Virus record (IMG/VR): IMGVR_UViG_3300015245_000002
Span: 1 to 64,000 of that record
Reading direction: 5' to 3' (one strand)
Length of the DNA stretch: 64,000 nucleotides
Source: a virus
A program made the position numbers and the translations under genes. Shown here piece after piece: positions 1,654 through 59,996 of this stretch. Position 1 is the stretch's first letter, and the number at the start of each line of letters is the position of its first letter. Below the pieces are notes generated by a model, which was not told the origin of the DNA, made no database searches, and saw only the letters and a list, made by a program, of their open reading frames with translations.

Positions 1654-2423
1654 CCGCCTCGCGCCGCACTGGACGCATCCCGTCGCGGCGCGACCCGCGC
1701 ACGCTGCGGATGGCCAGCTACCTCGGCGCGCGCACAGCGCTTCCGACGCCGCCGGATGCCCGCGACTGGACGCACCCCACACATGCTCCAACGTGGGGTA
1801 TGTGGTCGAATGACGTCGCCGGTGATTGTACGTGCGCCTCACGTGCACACATTCTGCAGGCCGAGGCGTCGAACGCTGGACATCCCGCGCCAGCGATCAC
1901 GGACGCCGAGGTCCTGGCGCTCTACACCGCGGTGACCGGCTACGACCCGGCGCGGCCAGAGACGGATCGCGGTGCGCAGATGATCGACGTGCTTCGCATG
2001 CTGAAGAAGCGTGGGATCGCCGGGCGGCAGATTGGCGCGTACGTCGCGGTCGATCCGGCGAATCGTCTCGAGGTCGAGCACGCCATCAACATCTGTGGCT
2101 CGCTGTACCTCGGGCTGTCGCTCCCCGAGGCATGGCAAGTGAACACGATGTGGGACATCGCGCCTCCAAACGCTGCGCTTGCGCCGTGGAAGGCTGGCAG
2201 TTGGGGCGGCCACGCCGTCGCTGTGCTTGCCTACGATTGGGCCGGATTGTGGCTGGTCACGTGGGGCGCGCTCAAGCGGATCACGTGGGAAGGCCTGTTT
2301 GCCTACGGCGACGAGGCGTGGACCACGATCGACTCGCTGTGGCTGCAGGACTGCGGCGAAACGCCGAGCGGGTTCAATGCGGTGCAGCTCGTGCAGGATC
2401 TGGCGAGGATCGGATCGGCATGA
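1650..2423 (+). CDS. Papain-like cysteine peptidase
   Basis: This 257-residue protein has the order of a C1-fold peptidase. A catalytic Cys lies in NDVAGDCTCA (Cys60, with Asn54 as possible oxyanion residue), a catalytic His in SWGGHAVAV (His188), and a TWG turn about 16 residues later sits where the third residue would fall. No signal peptide is visible. Similar proteins occur in tailed-phage genomes near lysis or tail genes, but their substrates are mostly unknown. Here it lies between a lipoprotein and an endolysin, so a role in envelope degradation or virion entry is plausible. Fold assignment is fairly firm, role is not. Confidence 0.7.
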   Translation: MTASRRTGRIPSRRDPRTLRMASYLGARTALPTPPDARDWTHPTHAPTWGMWSNDVAGDCTCASRAHILQAEASNAGHPAPAITDAEVLALYTAVTGYDPARPETDRGAQMIDVLRMLKKRGIAGRQIGAYVAVDPANRLEVEHAINICGSLYLGLSLPEAWQVNTMWDIAPPNAALAPWKAGSWGGHAVAVLAYDWAGLWLVTWGALKRITWEGLFAYGDEAWTTIDSLWLQDCGETPSGFNAVQLVQDLARIGSA

Positions 2424-2737: not shown

Positions 2738-3108
2738 CGTCCGGCGACCGCTTCCGCATACTCTGCGACCAGTCGCGGCTCCCGCAGGCGGAGCGCGATC
2801 GATGGCCCGAGTCGCTGCCGTGGTCGATCGTCGAGCCGTGGCGAGCGCAGGCTGAGCGCAACCACGGCCAGACGCTCGAGCGTCTCAACGAGCGTGGCGG
2901 ACTATCACCGTTGGAACTGTGGCTCGCCGCACACCAGCAACGTCCGTTCGCCGATGCGCACCTACCGGAGTGGGAGTGCGCTGAGTGGCTGATCCGGATC
3001 GTCGCAGACCACGAAGAAGAATCAGCCGAACGTCAGCGCAAGGAACGGCTTGAGCGCGAGTTTGAGGATGAACGCGAAAATCGGCTCTACGTCAGGGGTG
3101 AGCCGTGA
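2734..3108 (+). CDS. Hypothetical charged protein (124 aa)
   Basis: It starts at GTG 2734 (GTGA overlap). It is rich in Glu, Arg and Trp, and residues 85-120 form a strongly charged helix, probably a coiled coil. No membrane segment and no recognised family. Confidence 0.6.
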   Translation: MTSGDRFRILCDQSRLPQAERDRWPESLPWSIVEPWRAQAERNHGQTLERLNERGGLSPLELWLAAHQQRPFADAHLPEWECAEWLIRIVADHEEESAERQRKERLEREFEDERENRLYVRGEP

Positions 3109-5763: not shown

Positions 5764-5946
5764 CTATAATCCTTCCGATAAAGCGGTTACGAAGACACCG
5801 AGTCCCCAGTCCGACACGGTCATGCCAGCTGCATCGGCTGCAGCCTTGACGCGAGCGGCGAACTCAGCCGTGGCTCGGACCCGGATCGTCGCGCTGCGCT
5901 TGGATGCGCCGAGCGCTGGCCGTCCGCCTCGGTTCGTCTTCACCAT
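5764..5946 (-). CDS. Ribbon-helix-helix-type DNA-binding protein
   Basis: In this 60-residue protein a basic N-terminus is followed by a strand (SATIRVRA) and two helices ending in TVSDWGLGVF, the order of Arc/CopG-type regulators, which bind operators as dimers through the strand. Its ATG is only six bases from a minus10-like hexamer, so the mRNA may be leaderless. An inverted TAGTT/AACTA pair overlaps that promoter and could be its own operator (inference). A close relative lies at 11845-12012. Confidence 0.65.
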   Translation of the reverse strand: MVKTNRGGRPALGASKRSATIRVRATAEFAARVKAAADAAGMTVSDWGLGVFVTALSEGL

Positions 5947-5988: not shown

Positions 5989-6132
5989 CTACGCGGTCTC
6001 GACGGTGCAACCGTCGATGGACGAGATGCCTCCGCCTCCTCCGCCGCCGCCGTGCGCACGTCCGAGGTCCTGCGTTCCGAGACGACGGATGATGTCTCTC
6101 CTGACAGAGAGCCTGCTGACTGACTTGATCAT
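5989..6132 (-). CDS. RiPP-like precursor peptide (47 aa)
   Basis: ATG 6132 overlaps the stop of the upstream gene (ATGA). The peptide has a leader-like helix RLSVRRDIIRRL, then LGRAH, then eight consecutive Gly, and a short end containing SSIDGC. This matches, in order and spacing, the N-termini of the two Cys-rich peptides at 20721-20975 and 21225-21479 (L-[SH]-[LV]-x2-[DE]-x2-R-x-L ... LG-GG). Such leaders are typical of class I lanthipeptide-like precursors. No modifying enzyme is seen. It could also be a free small regulatory peptide. Confidence 0.5.
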   Translation of the reverse strand: MIKSVSRLSVRRDIIRRLGTQDLGRAHGGGGGGGGISSIDGCTVETA

Positions 6133-6353
6133 TTCATTTCTCCTGCTGTTGGTGCAACGACGCGAAGCGCATGGATCTCATAGCGATCCCAGTAGAATTC
6201 ACAGACCTTGGTGCGGGGTCTGCCGCGGCGATTGGTCCGAGTCGTGCGCACGAAGACTCGCCCCTCGGCGATGCGCGAGATCACGCCACGATCGATTGCT
6301 GGGGCCGAGCCGCCCAGCGTCAGTTCCCACTCGACCATGTCACCGATCTTCAT
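6129..6353 (-). CDS. Small beta-rich protein (74 aa)
   Basis: It starts at ATG 6353, which overlaps the stop of the upstream gene. The sequence MKIGDMVEWEL... with later GVISRIAEGRVFVRT has the look of an SH3-like small barrel, as found in many short phage proteins that carry a GDxV start. A short tail with Tyr/Trp follows. Function unknown. Confidence 0.6.
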   Translation of the reverse strand: MKIGDMVEWELTLGGSAPAIDRGVISRIAEGRVFVRTTRTNRRGRPRTKVCEFYWDRYEIHALRVVAPTAGEMK

Positions 6354-11844: not shown

Positions 11845-12012
11845 CTACGTCGTCTTCTTAACGGCAGCCTCGAACAGCCTCCGCCCCCAATCACTCACCG
11901 ATCGACCATCGCGTTTCGCCGCCACGGCGATCAAACGGTCGAGTTCCGGCGTAACGAGGATCTTCACGAGCTCAGTGCGACGAGGCAGCCTCGAGCGGGG
12001 TCGTCCGGTCAT
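11845..12012 (-). CDS. Ribbon-helix-helix-type regulator (55 aa)
   Basis: ATG 12012 overlaps the stop of the pentapeptide-repeat gene. The basic start, the strand ELVKILVT, the helix PELDRLIAVAAKR and the end SVSDWGRRLFEAA match the protein at 5764-5946. A likely DNA-binding dimer. It may autoregulate the promoter region at 12753-12787 (inference). Confidence 0.65.
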   Translation of the reverse strand: MTGRPRSRLPRRTELVKILVTPELDRLIAVAAKRDGRSVSDWGRRLFEAAVKKTT

Positions 12013-12752
12013 CCCCCAGTCCCCTGATTCTCAGCCTGCCACTCCACGATCCAGCCCTCGACGATCTTAGCCACGGGGTTAATCGCCGGAACGTGGCCGG
12101 GTGAGATCGCCATGAACAAACGCTCGGCCGGACGAGCCGAGTCTGGCCTGATTCCATCCAGATGATCGAACGCTACCCCGCGCAGGTTACCGATCGTGCC
12201 GACAAGGCAGGCGCATTCACCCTCGTAGCAGGAGCCATCCACGCGACCCTCGCGGATCGCGAGGAGGAGTCCAGTGACTTCCGGGCGAGCGAGATCGAGG
12301 ATCTTGCGGAAGTCATCGCGGGCGCCGGTGAGGTTGGCGCCGGTGAGGTCGGCGTCGATGAGGTCGGCGCCGGTGAGGTTGGCGCCGGTGAGACGGGCGC
12401 CGGTGAGGTTGGCGCCGGTGAGGTCGGCGTCGATGAGGTCGGCGCCGGTGAGGTCGGCGTCGATGAGGTCGGCGCCGGTGAGGTCGGCGTCGATGAGACG
12501 GGCGCCGGTGAGGTTGGCGCCGGTGAGGTCGGCGTCGATGAGGTCGGCGCCGATGAGGTTGGCGCCGATGAGGTCGGCGCCGGTGAGGTTGGCGCCGGTG
12601 AGACGGGCGCCGGTGAGACGGGCATCGGTGAGGTGGGCGCCGGTGAGCAGAGCGGACACAACCGCATCCCGCATCGGGGTTTCGCTGTCGTCAGCAACGT
12701 CGACGACAGCACAGGGCGTAGTTCTCCAGCGATGAGGAATGGTGACCTTCAT
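12009..12752 (-). CDS. Pentapeptide-repeat protein
   Basis: In this 247-residue protein, residues 35-144 are 22 uninterrupted pentapeptides of the form L-[TI]-[GD]-A-[NDRH], which fold as a right-handed beta helix. Residues 145-247 form a separate domain ([36 protein letters not shown]) that I recall seeing attached to pentapeptide repeats in phages. Such helices can mimic DNA or act as scaffolds; the role here is unknown. The start codon directly follows a palindrome. The DNA repeat keeps other frames open, which should not be read as genes. Confidence 0.8.
12321..12650 (-). repeat. 15-base tandem repeat array (22 units)
   Basis: The unit is close to GGCGCCGGTGAGGTY on the + strand, one unit per pentapeptide. 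Near-identity of many units at DNA level implies recent expansion or gene conversion. It is not a CRISPR: there are no spacers. Confidence 0.85.
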
Positions 12753-12991: not shown

Positions 12992-14068
12992 TCACGGCAC
13001 CAGTTTCAGCCGGCGCGCGGCACGTTCCGACCGAGTCGCATCCGACGCTCCGCGCTCGGCGTAGCTCCGCGTCGTGACCGGGGATGCGGCCGCGGTCGCG
13101 TGGCCAAGATGCTGCGAGACCGCGAGCGGGGCCACCGAGGCCTCGAGCGCGAGATCGGCGTTGGTGCGCCGCAACGCCTGCGGAGAAACTACCGAGACGC
13201 CTGCCAGCGCGCAGCACTCCATGACCCGCTTGCGCGCCAGAAAGCGGCTCAGACGCGCGCCGAGTTCGTTCAGGAAGATCGGTGCGTTGGTCGCCCGGCC
13301 AGCAACAAGCGTCAGAATCGCAGCGCGCAAATCTCCGGGCAGGTGCAGCGCTCGGCGACCCGCTTCGCTCTTGGTCTTGCCGATCTTGAGCACCATGGCG
13401 CCATCGTCGAGGTCCCGCACGTCGCGTCGACAAAGTTCCGATGCGCGAGCCCCGAGCAGCAGGTAAGCCAGCGTCAGGACCGCGTGCTGATTACCCAGAT
13501 GGTCGTAGCACCAAGCAGCGAGCTGCCGTGACTCATCCGTGCTGAGTCGCGCCTTGTCGGCGCCCATGGCGCGCTTACCCACGGGCTCAACGTCCGCCCA
13601 TGGGTTGGTGCGAATCCAGCGCTCCTTGACCAACCAGCGCCCCATCTCGCGTGCGCGCCCCAGCGCGAACTGGTGCGTGCCAGCCGCGTACGGCGTGCCC
13701 TCCTGATCCCGCTGCGCCCTCCGGTACAGCTCCTCACCACGACCGCTCAGGTAGCGCAGCGGCCGGGCCGCGCAATCTCCGAGCATCGACAGCAGTGCGA
13801 TCCGGTAGGTCCGCACCGTCGTCGGCAGGATGCCATCGACCTCGCGATGCGCCAGCCATGCCTTCATCGCCTGGTCTACTGTCCTGCCTTGCGCCTCATC
13901 GCGGGCAGCATCGATCCACGTCTCTGCTTCTGCCTGCGAAGCAAAGTACCGATACTCCGTCTTGCGTCGTCCTCGATCGTCTGCCTCGTCGACGATATGA
14001 ACACGCCAACGCCCTCCACGTCGGTACGGTCCGTAGATCCTGACTCCGGTTGCTCTGGGTCGTCCCAT
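12992..14068 (-). CDS. int: Tyrosine recombinase (phage integrase)
   Basis: This 358-residue enzyme shows the catalytic domain series: Arg in LLGARASELCRRD, Lys in KTKSEAGRR, then QALRRT where the usual HxxR has Gln in place of His, His in SQHLGH, and the nucleophile Tyr in TTRSYA. The N-terminal part (RRGGRWRVHIVDEADDRG) is an arm-binding AP2-like beta sheet, followed by a SAM-like core-binding domain. It would join attP with a host attB and, with an excisionase, reverse this. The start at ATG 14068 lacks a clear ribosome site, and an overlapping gene precedes it. Confidence 0.88.
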   Translation of the reverse strand: MGRPRATGVRIYGPYRRGGRWRVHIVDEADDRGRRKTEYRYFASQAEAETWIDAARDEAQGRTVDQAMKAWLAHREVDGILPTTVRTYRIALLSMLGDCAARPLRYLSGRGEELYRRAQRDQEGTPYAAGTHQFALGRAREMGRWLVKERWIRTNPWADVEPVGKRAMGADKARLSTDESRQLAAWCYDHLGNQHAVLTLAYLLLGARASELCRRDVRDLDDGAMVLKIGKTKSEAGRRALHLPGDLRAAILTLVAGRATNAPIFLNELGARLSRFLARKRVMECCALAGVSVVSPQALRRTNADLALEASVAPLAVSQHLGHATAAASPVTTRSYAERGASDATRSERAARRLKLVP

Positions 14069-16838: not shown

Positions 16839-17269
16839 GGCTGGCTCTCCACTGCTACTCTCAGACGCCGCATATCATCGAGCAGCGTCGGACGTGACTG
16901 CGCGCGCCGCTGGCGGATCTCGAGCTGGATCTCGGTGCGCGCCTGACGCGCCTCGGTGAGGCGATCTCCGATCGAGTCCCTGGCCGTCTCCAGTCGCGCG
17001 ATGTCCTCGGCGATTGCATCATCGGCTTGACGGAGCTCGGCGATTCGACTGATGTTGGGCTCCTGACAGTCCGTTCCCTGCTCGATACCGAGGGCATCGT
17101 TGATCTGGTCGACCAGCGCGCTCCGATCGACCTTTCCGGCGAGCAGCATGCAGACCTGCGCATGGCTTACGTTCGACCTCCGCGCCAAGTCTCGCCGCGA
17201 CATCCTCCGCTCCTCGATAGCCTCGGAGACCGTGCGGCGCCATTCTTCGGTGACCTCGGTGATGGTCAC
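16835..17269 (-). CDS. XRE-type HTH protein with coiled coil
   Basis: In this 144-residue protein, residues 12-62 (SEAIEERRMSRRDLARRS, SHAQVCMLLAGK) are a helix-turn-helix of the Cro/XRE type, followed by a long helical region (EDIARLETARDSIG) likely to dimerise. Probable transcription regulator of nearby leftward genes. The start is GTG 17269. Confidence 0.7.
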   Translation of the reverse strand: MTITEVTEEWRRTVSEAIEERRMSRRDLARRSNVSHAQVCMLLAGKVDRSALVDQINDALGIEQGTDCQEPNISRIAELRQADDAIAEDIARLETARDSIGDRLTEARQARTEIQLEIRQRRAQSRPTLLDDMRRLRVAVESQP

Positions 17270-18267
17270 GGGGCCCTCATGATCGTACTGGAGTCGGAGG
17301 TCGTGGTCGGCAGTCGCGGTGCGTGTGGACGCGCCTCGATCATCGCGATCGCGCCGTGCAACGAGACGAAGGTCCGGTTCACCGAGCGCTGCATGGCGCC
17401 GATCTCGTCGTCTCGATCCGTAACCGAGATCTTGACTGCGAGCTCGCTGGTGTCCGGGCTCTGGCTCACTCGATCCATCTCGGTCGAGAGCGCGACGAGC
17501 GGACGGATCATGCGCCGACTCAGCAGAAACATCCCTGCGATAGCCAGCAGTACGAGCGCGCCGAACGTTACCGACAGTCGCATGATCAGGTCATTGCGCT
17601 GCGCCGTGATCCGGTCCTGCGATACGCCGACACGGAACGCGCCCCAGTGCTGCCCATGGACGAAGATCGGCGCGGCAACGTCCCAGGCCAGTTCTCCGGT
17701 GTCGCGGGGGTATTGCTGGACGAGCACACCAGATCCGGCGTAGCCAGCAGCCGCGACAGGCTCCGCGCCCGGGTAGATCATCTTGCCTCGAGACAGCTGA
17801 GGGTCGGTAGCGTCCCCTTTCGGTGGTCCGTCCTGACGAGAATTCGTCGTCGGAACATAGCCGCCGCTGGCACCCGACTCCAGGCGGATCCGCATCATTC
17901 CCGAAGCGAACAGGCAGTCACTACACGAGCCGACTACCGCGTCCTCGATCTGCTGGATCCCGTGCGAGTCCGTGTAATCGGACAGCAGCGATCGATACCT
18001 GGCGTGCTCGACCTTGACCGAGAATTTGATCTCATCGAGCCGTGGGTGCACGACGTCATCGATCGTCAGCTTACCCGCCTCGACTGCATCGTCGAGGAGT
18101 CGACCATACGCCGCGGCGCTGGCGAGGGCCGTGGTTTGCGCATCCTTGACACGAGCCCCTGTGACCACGTCCATTTCCCGGGCCGTCACGGCGGCACCGG
18201 CCATGGCGAGGAGTAGGAGCATGATCGCAGCGGAGAATACGGAGAGGCGTACGGAGATTCGCTTCAT
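17266..18267 (-). CDS. Chemoreceptor-like membrane protein with HAMP domain, no signalling domain
   Basis: In this 333-residue protein, membrane helix 1 is at about residues 8-30 and a periplasmic sensor domain spans about 31-215 (containing VGSCSDCLF and AWDVAAPIFVHGQHWGAFRVG). Membrane helix 2 (FGALVLLAIAGMFLL) and a HAMP linker (MIRPLVALSTEMDRVSQ, then DEIGAMQRSVN) follow. The layout matches methyl-accepting chemotaxis proteins, but the protein ends right after HAMP. It could heterodimerise with host receptors and alter signalling (inference). An ATG at 18267 is preferred to an upstream GTG. Confidence 0.75.
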   Translation of the reverse strand: MKRISVRLSVFSAAIMLLLLAMAGAAVTAREMDVVTGARVKDAQTTALASAAAYGRLLDDAVEAGKLTIDDVVHPRLDEIKFSVKVEHARYRSLLSDYTDSHGIQQIEDAVVGSCSDCLFASGMMRIRLESGASGGYVPTTNSRQDGPPKGDATDPQLSRGKMIYPGAEPVAAAGYAGSGVLVQQYPRDTGELAWDVAAPIFVHGQHWGAFRVGVSQDRITAQRNDLIMRLSVTFGALVLLAIAGMFLLSRRMIRPLVALSTEMDRVSQSPDTSELAVKISVTDRDDEIGAMQRSVNRTFVSLHGAIAMIEARPHAPRLPTTTSDSSTIMRAP

Positions 18268-21487: not shown

Positions 21488-22609
21488 CTAAAACGGTGAA
21501 TCTGCCACTGGTTCGTCGTCAGTCGTGACGAGCTGCGGCTTGGTGTCGTATTCCTCGATCACTGTCGTAGACTTGCGCTCGGATCCGCCGGCGGCCCGAA
21601 CCGCCTCGATCACGGCCTTCGCCGCGCCGCGCTTGCCCTTGAGCGCCGCGTCGAGCCGAGTCTTCGTGGCGACACGCGCGACCGCAGCGTCGGCCGTTGC
21701 TTGGTCGTGCAGCCGCTTGACGGTCTCGTAGACCACGTCACCGTCGAGCTTTTCGTTGCCGAGCTTGTGGTGCGGGCCGAATGTCTTGCCTAAGCGCAGT
21801 TGGATCGGTCGCTCAGCGGCCCGCGCATGCAACGCGGCGTTGAGCCTTGATACAACAATCTTGATCCGCTGCAGTAATTCATACGCCTCCGCCGCTTCGG
21901 TGTCGTCCTGGAACGGGATCATCGCTTCGATGCGTACCGCGATCTCTCCGGTTCCAGCCTGAATCGCGAGTGCTTTTTGTTCGGGGCACGACAAAAACGC
22001 GTGGCAGTATTTGCAGTGTGGTCCGGTACGCAACGTTTTGTCGGTTGAAATCAACATGTCCCGCAACCGAACGAAATGAGCGTCGAGTTCGAGCACGCCA
22101 AGTGTAGCGATGTCAGCAGGAAGCCACGACGCACCGAGATAGACGATTGCTACGGTGACCTCGTCACGACCAGAAGCTCGAGCAACCGCGAGCGCTGCGC
22201 ATGCGAGCTGCCGGTTGTCGGCTGCGGACGTGACTCGCTCAAAGCCCTTGTAGTCCACGACGAGGATTCGCCGCTCGCCGTAGACGATCAGGTCAATCGT
22301 CCCAGGGATCTCGAACGGTCGAAGTCCGGTGTAGTCGCGCCATGCGATGTGACCAAGAGCGCGCGCCGTGTCGTCGCTGGTGTCGATCGCCATGGCACAT
22401 TCAGCCGACAGAACATCGCCGGGCTCGAGGAGCTTGCGTACCTGCCACGGAAGATCTTCGTTCGCGCCAAGCACCACCGCCGCTTCCGCATCCCCGTGCC
22501 GATCGTTGCCCTGATCAGCATACGTCGTGTGGTAGTCGTGCTGCGGCAGGTGAGCGGAGCCTGGGCATGCCAGGACGCGCTCCACGGACGAAAACGAATG
22601 ACGGATCAT
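21488..22609 (-). CDS. Cas4/RecB-like PD-(D/E)XK exonuclease (DUF2800-like)
   Basis: In this 373-residue protein, Cys15 (VLACPGS) pairs with a later CKYCHAFLSC cluster, the four-Cys iron-sulfur arrangement of Cas4/AddB-type nucleases. The active site is GTIDLIVYG followed by ILVVDYKGF (D...DxK). It would degrade one DNA strand to feed the RecT annealase encoded just upstream in the operon. The remaining C-terminus is Ala/Lys-rich and helical. ATG 22609 is chosen because homologous sequence begins there. Confidence 0.75.
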   Translation of the reverse strand: MIRHSFSSVERVLACPGSAHLPQHDYHTTYADQGNDRHGDAEAAVVLGANEDLPWQVRKLLEPGDVLSAECAMAIDTSDDTARALGHIAWRDYTGLRPFEIPGTIDLIVYGERRILVVDYKGFERVTSAADNRQLACAALAVARASGRDEVTVAIVYLGASWLPADIATLGVLELDAHFVRLRDMLISTDKTLRTGPHCKYCHAFLSCPEQKALAIQAGTGEIAVRIEAMIPFQDDTEAAEAYELLQRIKIVVSRLNAALHARAAERPIQLRLGKTFGPHHKLGNEKLDGDVVYETVKRLHDQATADAAVARVATKTRLDAALKGKRGAAKAVIEAVRAAGGSERKSTTVIEEYDTKPQLVTTDDEPVADSPF

Positions 22610-22923: not shown

Positions 22924-23798
22924 GACACCTCACCCGTGCTTGCGTCGGATTGCGTCACGGGGACCACAGGCGGCATCGCTTCGACCGATGACGAACCGCC
23001 TGATGTAGGGCGCCGCTTGAGGTCTGCCACCTTGGCCTTGTACTTCGCGTTGATCGCCTCGTACGCGGGATGTCCGGGCTTGAGCCCGCGCTTGGAAAAG
23101 CGATTGGCAATCACTTGGCATTCGGACATCGAGTCTGCGACGTCCAGTTCGGCGAACTCCTGGTAGTCGCTGGTGTTGAACGGCGGTGGAGTCGTTTGTG
23201 CGTCGGTGAACTCGGCGTCGATGACATCGGATTGCGTAGCGGCGGATGAAGCCTGCGCCACAGTGCTCGGCTCGCGATCGGCGATCTCGTCACTGGTGAA
23301 GCAGCCAGCGAGCACGTCCGGGTAAACGTCGCGTGCGAGCTCTGACTTCGCACGCGACGCCAGCATTGCGCGCGGAAAGGTCCGCCAGTTGTCCTTCTGG
23401 TGCAGCGCCGCTGACTTGGCCATCTCGATCGTCCACGTGCACTTCTGCTCGGGCTCTCCTCGGCGCTTCGTCACGTACGTGACGCTCCTGTCGGTCCCCT
23501 CGCCGGAACGGCGGAAGTACTCCGCCTTGCCACTGCCGAGCACGACCGCGACCATGGCGTCTGCGGTCATCACCGGCTTGCCAGAGATGATGTTGAAGCT
23601 ACGTAGCGACGCCATCGAGTACAGGCCGAGTTCCTGACCGGCCATGATCTGCATCAGGACGTCTGGAACCTTGCCCTTGAGGGCGTCGGGCAGTAGGGAG
23701 GACTTCGCAAGACGTTCCGCGAGGTCAATCACTTCGGCGAGGGTGCGCGGAACGATAACCGTCGTAGTCTGGCGGACCAGTGCGTTTTCTTCGCTCAC
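22920..23798 (-). CDS. recT: RecT-family single-strand annealing protein
   Basis: In this 292-residue protein the core (LPDALKGKVPDVLMQIMAG, YSMASLRSFNIISGKPVM, TADAMVAVVLGSGKAEYFR, then MLASRAKSELARDVYPDVLAG) matches the RecT fold. It anneals complementary DNA strands in phage recombination. A low-complexity tail rich in Ser/Thr/Pro follows residue 175. It is placed between the SSB-like gene and the nuclease, as in other Red-type modules. Confidence 0.82.
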   Translation of the reverse strand: MSEENALVRQTTTVIVPRTLAEVIDLAERLAKSSLLPDALKGKVPDVLMQIMAGQELGLYSMASLRSFNIISGKPVMTADAMVAVVLGSGKAEYFRRSGEGTDRSVTYVTKRRGEPEQKCTWTIEMAKSAALHQKDNWRTFPRAMLASRAKSELARDVYPDVLAGCFTSDEIADREPSTVAQASSAATQSDVIDAEFTDAQTTPPPFNTSDYQEFAELDVADSMSECQVIANRFSKRGLKPGHPAYEAINAKYKAKVADLKRRPTSGGSSSVEAMPPVVPVTQSDASTGEVS

Positions 23799-57551: not shown

Positions 57552-59996
57552 GTGAAGTGGCGATTTCCGTGGAGCCGCGAAGCGGCCGTTATCGATAAGG
57601 CCGCGGCTGCCGGCCCGGGGGGCTTCACGCCAACAGTGACTGTCCCGCCGCCCACGAAGCCAGCCGGCGCCGACGGCACGGCGATCATCGGCGGTTTCGT
57701 CGTCTCGGGCGAGCGCGATCCGAAGCTGACCTCGCTCAACAAGTGGGTGACCTACGACAACGCGACGCTCAACGTCGCGATCATCGGCTCAGCGATCAAC
57801 GTTTGGACGCAGCTCGCGGGCTCGGCGACTTGGAGTGTCGAGCCGAACAAGCGCGGCGGCGCGGATGCGCAGCGGGCCGCGGATCTCGTGCAAGAGGGCT
57901 TGCTCGATGCGCAGCTCTCGGTGCCCTGGCGGCAGATCGTACGCCGCCAGATCATGAAAAAGTTCCGTGGTTTCGCGATGCACGAAATCGTGTTGCGGCG
58001 ACGGAGCGACGACATGATCGTCGTCGGGGATATCCAGGACAGGCCGCAGTGGACAATATACCGCTGGAACAGGCCAGATCCGCAGGCTGAATGGGAGGGC
58101 GTCGAGCAGCTCACTCAGCAGGGTTACTCGAGTACGTACTACATCCCGCGCGAGCGGCTGTTCTACAGCGTCGAGAATACGCTGTCGCCGAACCCGGAAG
58201 GCGTCGGACTCCTGCGGCAGATGGCCGAGAGCGTGCGCGTGCTGGAGATCTACCAGCGGCTCGAGGGTGTCGGTTTTCAGACCGAGCTCGGTGGGGTGCC
58301 GATCGCCAGGGCGCCGTTATCGAAGATCGCTCAGGATCTCGGCACACAGGGCAAGTCAGATCTGGAGATTCAGGTCGCTGTCAGGGAGAAGGTCTCGATG
58401 CTCGAGGCATTCCTGCGTAGCCACAACCGGAACCCCGAGTCTGGCCTGATGCTCGACAGCGCGACCTACACGAACCGGGACGCGTCGCTCACCCCGAGCT
58501 CGATCTACGAGTGGGCCTTCGATCTGATCAAGTCCTCGGGTGGAGACATGGGCTCGATCGGTACGGCGATCGGACGTGTCACCCGCGACATCGCCCGGGT
58601 CATGTGCGCGGAGTGGCTACTCCTCGGCGGCGAGGATAGCGGCGGCGCGTACTCGATGCACGCGGACAAGACGGCCATGTTTGGCCTCGTCGTGAACTCC
58701 GCGCTAAACGACGTGGCCGACGACGCTCGCCGGGACATCGCGACGCGGCTCGTGGCGCTCAACGGCCTGGATCCGGAGCTCTGCACGCCGCGTCTGGTCG
58801 CTGCGCCCGTCGCCACGGGTGCGGTCAAGGACGCATGCGCAGCTCTCGCTGCGCTGTTCCAGGCCGGGCTCAATCCGACCGATCCAGCCATCAACGTGCT
58901 GCGCAGTCGGATGGATCTGCCGCCGGCGCCCTCGATCGACGAGACGGATCTACTCCTGCCCCGCGGCACGGAGATCGAGCGTCTTGGAGCCGATGGGCGG
59001 ATCGAGGCGGTCGAGGCCGCGACGGGGCAGCCTGTCGGCCCTGGGGCCGCACCGACCGACGCCGCACCAGGCAAGCCTGGGAACGCGAACGCGCGATCCG
59101 TGGGGAAATACGCGCCCGATCAGTCAAGGGATGAGCATGGGCAATGGTCCAGCGGAGGTGGCGGTGGCGGTGGCGGGGCGTGGACGCGCGCCTTTGACTC
59201 TCGCGATCACATGCGAGAGATCGAGATTCACCGATCTACCGAATCCGAGCACCGGGCCGCGGCCAGTGATCTAAAATCAAAGATCGGCGAGCTCCGAAGT
59301 CAATCGAAAGACGCAACGCCGGGCCGGGCCGCGCAAATCGATCGTCGTATCGGTCGACTGCAGGCGCAGCACGACGAGCATGTCGGGATCGCGCATGACG
59401 CCGCATCCGCGCGGCGTGCCACGCAGGCAGATCTCGCGGGTCGCCGCGCCTCGCATGCTCAGGGCTTACGCGATCAGGCCGATGCCCGTCGCGAGGCAGA
59501 TGCGCATCAGGTACAAGACGAGCGAGACGCGATCGGCAGAGTCGGCGGTATGCGGATCGGCGGTGAAGGCGATCACGGCGCCGAGGGCGAGAGCAGCAGC
59601 CCCGTTCCGCACTACTCGGATACGCCCGATCACCACATGGGGATCGGTACAGGTGAACGGATCGCTGGCGAGCCTGTCGTGGCGCCAGTGGTGCCCCAAC
59701 GGGGACTGACCTCGGAGGACTGGGCGGAGCGTGGCCGTGCGAGCCACGCCGAGTGGGCCGCGGCGCAGGATCATCAACGACTGCAAGCCGAGACCGCGGC
59801 GCGCCAAACGGCCCGCGCCAACGATGAATACAAGCAACGGGAGCAAGGCGCCCGTGATCTGCCAGTAGCCAGCGCCAGGCCCAGTCTCGGGCAACGGCTA
59901 CGCGGGATGCTGGGCAGCAAGAAGGCATCGGCCACTGCGGTCGACTTGCTCGAGCTTGAGGCGATGCTCGATGAGCACGAGGAGCCGACGAAGTGA
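57552..59996 (+). CDS. Portal protein (Mu gp29/DUF935-like) with long extension
   Basis: In this 814-residue protein, residues 1-480 match the DUF935 portal family (FRGFAMHEIVLRRR, TLSPNPEGVGLLRQ, SGGDMGSIGTAIGRVTRD). It forms the dodecameric ring for DNA entry. After residue 515 come SRDEHGQWSSGGGG, a Gly tract, and about 280 charged helical residues, longer than the usual portal. The extension may act as an internal scaffold or ejection part. GTG 57552 is the start. Confidence 0.82.
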   Translation: MKWRFPWSREAAVIDKAAAAGPGGFTPTVTVPPPTKPAGADGTAIIGGFVVSGERDPKLTSLNKWVTYDNATLNVAIIGSAINVWTQLAGSATWSVEPNKRGGADAQRAADLVQEGLLDAQLSVPWRQIVRRQIMKKFRGFAMHEIVLRRRSDDMIVVGDIQDRPQWTIYRWNRPDPQAEWEGVEQLTQQGYSSTYYIPRERLFYSVENTLSPNPEGVGLLRQMAESVRVLEIYQRLEGVGFQTELGGVPIARAPLSKIAQDLGTQGKSDLEIQVAVREKVSMLEAFLRSHNRNPESGLMLDSATYTNRDASLTPSSIYEWAFDLIKSSGGDMGSIGTAIGRVTRDIARVMCAEWLLLGGEDSGGAYSMHADKTAMFGLVVNSALNDVADDARRDIATRLVALNGLDPELCTPRLVAAPVATGAVKDACAALAALFQAGLNPTDPAINVLRSRMDLPPAPSIDETDLLLPRGTEIERLGADGRIEAVEAATGQPVGPGAAPTDAAPGKPGNANARSVGKYAPDQSRDEHGQWSSGGGGGGGGAWTRAFDSRDHMREIEIHRSTESEHRAAASDLKSKIGELRSQSKDATPGRAAQIDRRIGRLQAQHDEHVGIAHDAASARRATQADLAGRRASHAQGLRDQADARREADAHQVQDERDAIGRVGGMRIGGEGDHGAEGESSSPVPHYSDTPDHHMGIGTGERIAGEPVVAPVVPQRGLTSEDWAERGRASHAEWAAAQDHQRLQAETAARQTARANDEYKQREQGARDLPVASARPSLGQRLRGMLGSKKASATAVDLLELEAMLDEHEEPTK

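Follow-up and report, generated by a model that had tools for sequence, protein, structure and literature searches.

Precursors of class I lanthipeptides (LanA) carry leaders with the motif LxLxKx5L, many of them with a GG end (Walker et al. 2020, PMC7268733). Three peptides of the phage described here have a leader resembling this motif, the GG end, a Cys-free leader and variable cores with Ser, Thr and Cys in common with LanA (PMC7268733; NF038153). Judged from sequence, their leader is of the LxLxKx5L...GG type already described for class I lanthipeptides. They differ from LanA in being phage-borne, in occurring as several scattered copies, and in that no LanB or LanC was found in their 83.7-kb record, which may be incomplete. 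In the smallest of them, a peptide of 47 residues (the 47-mer), the motif additionally deviates, the core is minimal and the NF038153 cut-off is not reached.

The prochlorosins (class II; PMC10783134), with their enzyme ProcM and scattered ProcA precursors, are comparable in the conserved GG-ended leader, the variable cores and the many precursor genes distant from a single enzyme. However, they have a leader of the Nif11 type and a LanM in the same cell genome, while the profile assigns the phage leader to class I and no LanM was among the Pfam matches of the scanned phage genes. Phages are not mentioned in the prochlorosin paper. The lanthiphages of Actinomycetota, as described in PMC12715929 and PMC12360287, likewise place class I LanBC chemistry at the interface of phage and host, but there whole clusters of bacterial genes are directed against phages. 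The present case consists of precursors alone, they are carried by the phage, and a complete LanBC cluster was not found in the record.

The leader type is known, and what is new in the material examined is the occurrence in phages of several scattered precursor genes without the enzymes. Phage genes of this precursor-only kind were not described in the literature searched (open-access full texts). We give a probability of roughly 0.55 to the reading that the 47-mer belongs to a set of three dispersed, phage-borne orphan precursors of the class I lanthipeptide type, which would be modified in trans by LanB and LanC of the host.

The 47-residue ORF and its phage setting

The window, i.e. the whole stretch of DNA analysed, comprises bases 1-64,000 of a viral record of 83,744 bases. 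The features discussed are listed in Table 1.

Table 1. Precursor genes and neighbouring features in the window
Feature	Position	Strand	Remarks
47-aa orphan precursor-like ORF (47-mer)	5989..6132	-	product MIKSVSRLSVRRDIIRRLGTQDLGRAHGGGGGGGGISSIDGCTVETA
Leader of the 47-mer, residues 1-29, MIKSVSRLSVRRDIIRRLGTQDLGRAHGG	6046..6132	-	LxVxRx5L...GG; BLASTP and leader HMM
Putative core of the 47-mer, GGGGGGISSIDGCTVETA	5992..6045	-	Gly tract, S37/S38, single Cys42 (SxxxC)
Shine-Dalgarno site AGGAG of the 47-mer ORF	6140..6144	-	7 nt 5' of ATG
Upstream gene, 74 aa, no family	6129..6353	-	stop overlaps the ATG of the 47-mer (ATGA)
Downstream gene, 60 aa, NikA-like	5764..5946	-	26.6 bits, below the cut-off of 27
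Second precursor, 84 aa	21225..21479	-	LHLRKEAVRSL, exact LxLxKx5L; 7 Cys in core
Third precursor, 84 aa	20721..20975	-	leader KLHLNSDTIRLL; 5 Cys in core
DUF2800/PD-(D/E)XK nuclease	21488..22609	-	adjoins the second precursor
Tyrosine integrase	12992..13867	-	

The ATG of the 47-mer (6132-6130) is preceded by a Shine-Dalgarno site graded good, and its overlap with the upstream stop occupies 6129-6132. A simple codon-usage gene caller called this ORF with a score of 5.9 and the second precursor with 0.8; the third precursor was not called by it. No Pfam, NCBIfam or PHROGs family matched the 47-mer.

The motif of the 47-mer is a conservative, non-literal variant of LxLxKx5L, and G28-G29 open a tract of eight Gly. 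The first-pass annotation had proposed a core of 12 residues with one Cys. The single Cys stands, and the length of 12 holds when counted past the last Gly, whereas 18 residues follow the first GG. The core contains SSIDGC, which fits the ring spacing S/T(x)2-7C (PMC7268733), though with one Cys in its 18 residues. It is the shortest core among the 12 viral peptides compared, its tract is made of simple GGC/GGA codons, and no orthologue of the 47-mer was found in any related viral record examined. These three observations would fit a decayed copy, namely a former precursor that lost its core, in part through slippage at the Gly codons, and is now functionless. We consider such decay possible but unlikely, since the ORF is intact, with its Shine-Dalgarno site and ATGA coupling, and since cellular precursors with equally short cores, or without Cys, exist, among them the LanB-linked short-core examples L121, L122 and L124.

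The second precursor gene begins 8 nt past the nuclease gene, which is kept in related phages without a precursor behind it, and the stop of the third overlaps the GTG start of the gene that follows it. Both adjoin phage recombination genes. The tyrosine integrase suggests that the phage is temperate. Genes for a Mu-like portal, a tape measure and VapE-like replication are present, the large terminase subunit (TerL) is 22-29% identical to those of phage isolates including Myxococcus phage Mx4, and the viral record G003 is colinear with this phage across a large part of the structural region. Scans of the window for Rfam families and tRNAs gave no matches. The window further encodes a 237-aa protein adjoining the amidase/lysis genes (1710-2423, plus strand; PHROG 19005, function unknown, 1.9e-24), a HAMP-domain protein with a weak sCache match (17266-18267, minus strand) and a pentapeptide-repeat protein (12009-12674, minus strand), which is 61% identical to one in the leader-bearing phage record G017.

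Likeness of the leaders

A match between the leaders of the 47-mer and the second precursor had been proposed earlier, and it was confirmed: in a single pairwise BLASTP comparison, 13 of 30 positions (43%) were identical over residues 1-30, with an E value of 4e-7. A degenerate DNA pattern for both leaders had two matches in the window, none in 100 shuffles and no other occurrence in 2.9 million IMG/VR contigs, the pattern being partly circular because it was derived from these two peptides themselves. Since the two had been chosen for their likeness in the first place, two HMMs were built from which the phage's own sequences were left out.

The first HMM, made from 17 cellular leaders, gave 28.2 bits for the third precursor, 14.4 for the second and 6.1 for the 47-mer, which rank first, second and third in this order among 1,801 six-frame segments. 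The remaining member of the three related leaders noted in the first-pass annotation is presumably our third precursor. In 4 of 20 shuffled sets, however, the best score reached or exceeded 6.1 bits (once 11.4), so that this HMM, taken alone, says little about the 47-mer. In one search the match of the 47-mer spans leader residues 12-29 only (E value of 0.006). Against NF038153 the second precursor scored 12 bits, short of the cut-off of 22, and the 47-mer had no match at all.

The second HMM combined the cellular leaders with those of other phages. All precursors scored at least 16.8 bits, the 47-mer being lowest at exactly this value, and the best unrelated ORF reached 9.4 bits. The 37,569 start-ORFs scored were taken from 30 viral records, some of which were counted twice (as locus and as full record). 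The leaders of the other phages had been collected with a DNA pattern modelled on a G003 precursor and the third precursor; therefore this HMM is independent of the 47-mer and not wholly of the phage.

These data bear on the idea that the 47-mer is an unrelated short phage protein, in which a helix rich in Arg and Leu followed by a Gly tract mimics a leader by chance. The result with the purely cellular model would allow this, but the distance to the best unrelated ORF in the second HMM, the pairwise E value against the second precursor and the correct spacing of the motif from the start codon make such mimicry improbable.

Leader-bearing genes in other phages and in bacteria

The leader pattern was found in viral contigs at 11 stretches, six of them precursor-like. 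Altogether, six other viral records hold nine further orphan precursors: two in G003, three in G016 and one each in G017, G018, G015 and G014. The copies in G003 and G016, two related phages, are dispersed. The precursors of G016, which has several genes in common with this phage, lie at 2904-3071 (minus strand), 23314-23532 (plus strand) and 57850-58038 (minus strand) and have cores with Cys. Searches for LanB, with a model validated by positive matches in bacterial genomes, and for LanC found neither in the precursor-bearing viral records, which may be incomplete. For the larger genes of G003, G016, G017 and G018, neither enzyme was among the Pfam matches listed, and Pfam scans of the predicted genes of this phage of at least about 70 aa gave no RiPP enzyme.

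Searches of viral contigs with the three peptides or the G003 precursor were superseded by the DNA patterns, because such queries are too short; the G003 precursor, a short query for tblastn, returned itself alone. In tblastn, which is insensitive at such lengths, neither two of the peptides nor an artificial consensus leader matched any of the INPHARED isolate phages. One match from a profile of the phage's own peptides (L026) was inspected and judged to be due to chance.

The alignment suggested earlier, in which leaders should be conserved while cores vary, was carried out with 12 viral peptides from seven records. Leader-leader similarity had a median z of 6.55 with 95% of the pairs above 3, and core-core similarity a median z of 0.35 with 3% of the pairs above 3. 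This supports the earlier view of a diversified family with a common leader rather than chance, and further members occur in two related phages and in LanB-carrying bacteria. The cores of the 11 other viral peptides contain 12.7% Cys, compared to 1.6% in the phage proteome, and in the viral cores Ser and Thr together make up 21.8%, compared to 13.8%.

In public genomes the pattern was found at 17 stretches, mostly in short ORFs composed of the leader and a core with Ser, Thr and Cys. LanB (PF04738) is present in 10 of the 12 genomes bearing such stretches; it is absent from those of L043 and L057 (Nocardioides and Bipolaricaulota), where the pattern falls in a long ORF. L043, L054 and L057 were rejected as precursors, since they are long unrelated ORFs. 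In Myxococcota, LanB was found in all 34 leader-positive genomes versus 73 of 193 overall (P 9e-18, phylogeny not corrected for), and 51 of 69 leader matches are at most 12 kb from a LanB match. Leader genes, LanC and LanB occur together in G024 (C255), G022 (C23), G025 (C145), G021 (C75) and G107.

It could be argued that the leader serves another enzyme, such as a PEARL-type small LanB-like ligase, a radical SAM enzyme or some other RiPP enzyme, because in some Myxococcota the only LanB-like proteins are short ones, about 790 aa long. We regard this as very improbable: the LanB co-occurring with the leader is long (frames of about 1,100 aa) with LanC adjacent, and the cores are rich in Cys, Ser and Thr.

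In G021 (Thermoanaerobaculum sp. MAG b48_HoplandSoilSeptJan), 43-53 class I-type leaders, mostly on separate contigs, were counted along with three LanB matches (loci examined: L045-L048, L055 and L058). Its relatives G518-G520 have 34, 24 and 8 such leaders, and G020 (Phycisphaerae) has 23 leaders and one LanB. By analogy, the layout in G021 and G020 seems to be for class I what that of the prochlorosins is for class II. Since dispersed cellular precursors far outnumber LanB in both genomes, use of the enzyme in trans is plausible.

Host and possible role

The phage probably has a bacterial host from soil. Relatives of its TerL were found in 4 of 195 Myxococcota and in none of 297 Acidobacteriota, and its portal protein has no relatives in 149 genomes from the class to which G021 belongs. 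The tetranucleotide profile is nearer to G021 (Acidobacteriota) than to Myxococcota, based on small and unequal samples. Because these results disagree, we do not claim a particular host.

Modification, product and function of the phage precursors are what we infer from the considerations above. During infection or lysogeny, LanB of the host would bind the leader and dehydrate Ser and Thr in the core. LanC would then close thioether rings on Cys; the 47-mer could form no more than one, from S37 or S38 to C42. After cleavage behind GG by a host protease, the product could serve the phage or the lysogen, for example against competitors. As precursor-type leaders occur in the phage without genes for modifying enzymes, the phage seems to feed the machinery of the host with substrates or decoys. 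Counting against this reading are that no modifying enzyme was found in the phage and, for the 47-mer, the departure from the literal motif, the Gly-rich core, the one Cys, the lack of any family match, the lack of an orthologue in the related records and the match that spans residues 12-29 only. The 47-mer is the shortest, weakest and least typical of the three precursors, and therefore the family is better supported than the role of this peptide as a functional precursor.

With its leader retained and its core nearly empty, the 47-mer might instead be a decoy, whose vestigial core and leader would occupy LanB and LanC of the host and blunt a possibly anti-phage lanthipeptide pathway. The lanthiphages mentioned above and the position of the other two precursors beside recombination genes would be in line with this. 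We nevertheless consider it unlikely, since most other phage precursors retain cores rich in Cys, Ser and Thr, which a decoy does not need, and no report of anti-phage lanthipeptides was found for the candidate host phyla. Extended to whole precursor sets, the notion becomes one of counter-defence or manipulation, in which the leaders would recruit LanB and LanC of the host and near-coreless members such as the 47-mer would divert the enzymes during infection. We hold this to be rather unlikely; given that class I lanthipeptides may act against phages, the precursor-only phage genes make it a testable idea.

Mining for RiPPs mostly starts at the modifying enzyme, and thus precursors that stand alone in a phage are overlooked. 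Further, if LanB of the host acts on the phage precursors, phages would serve as a mobile store of lanthipeptide cores and might alter what a lysogen makes.
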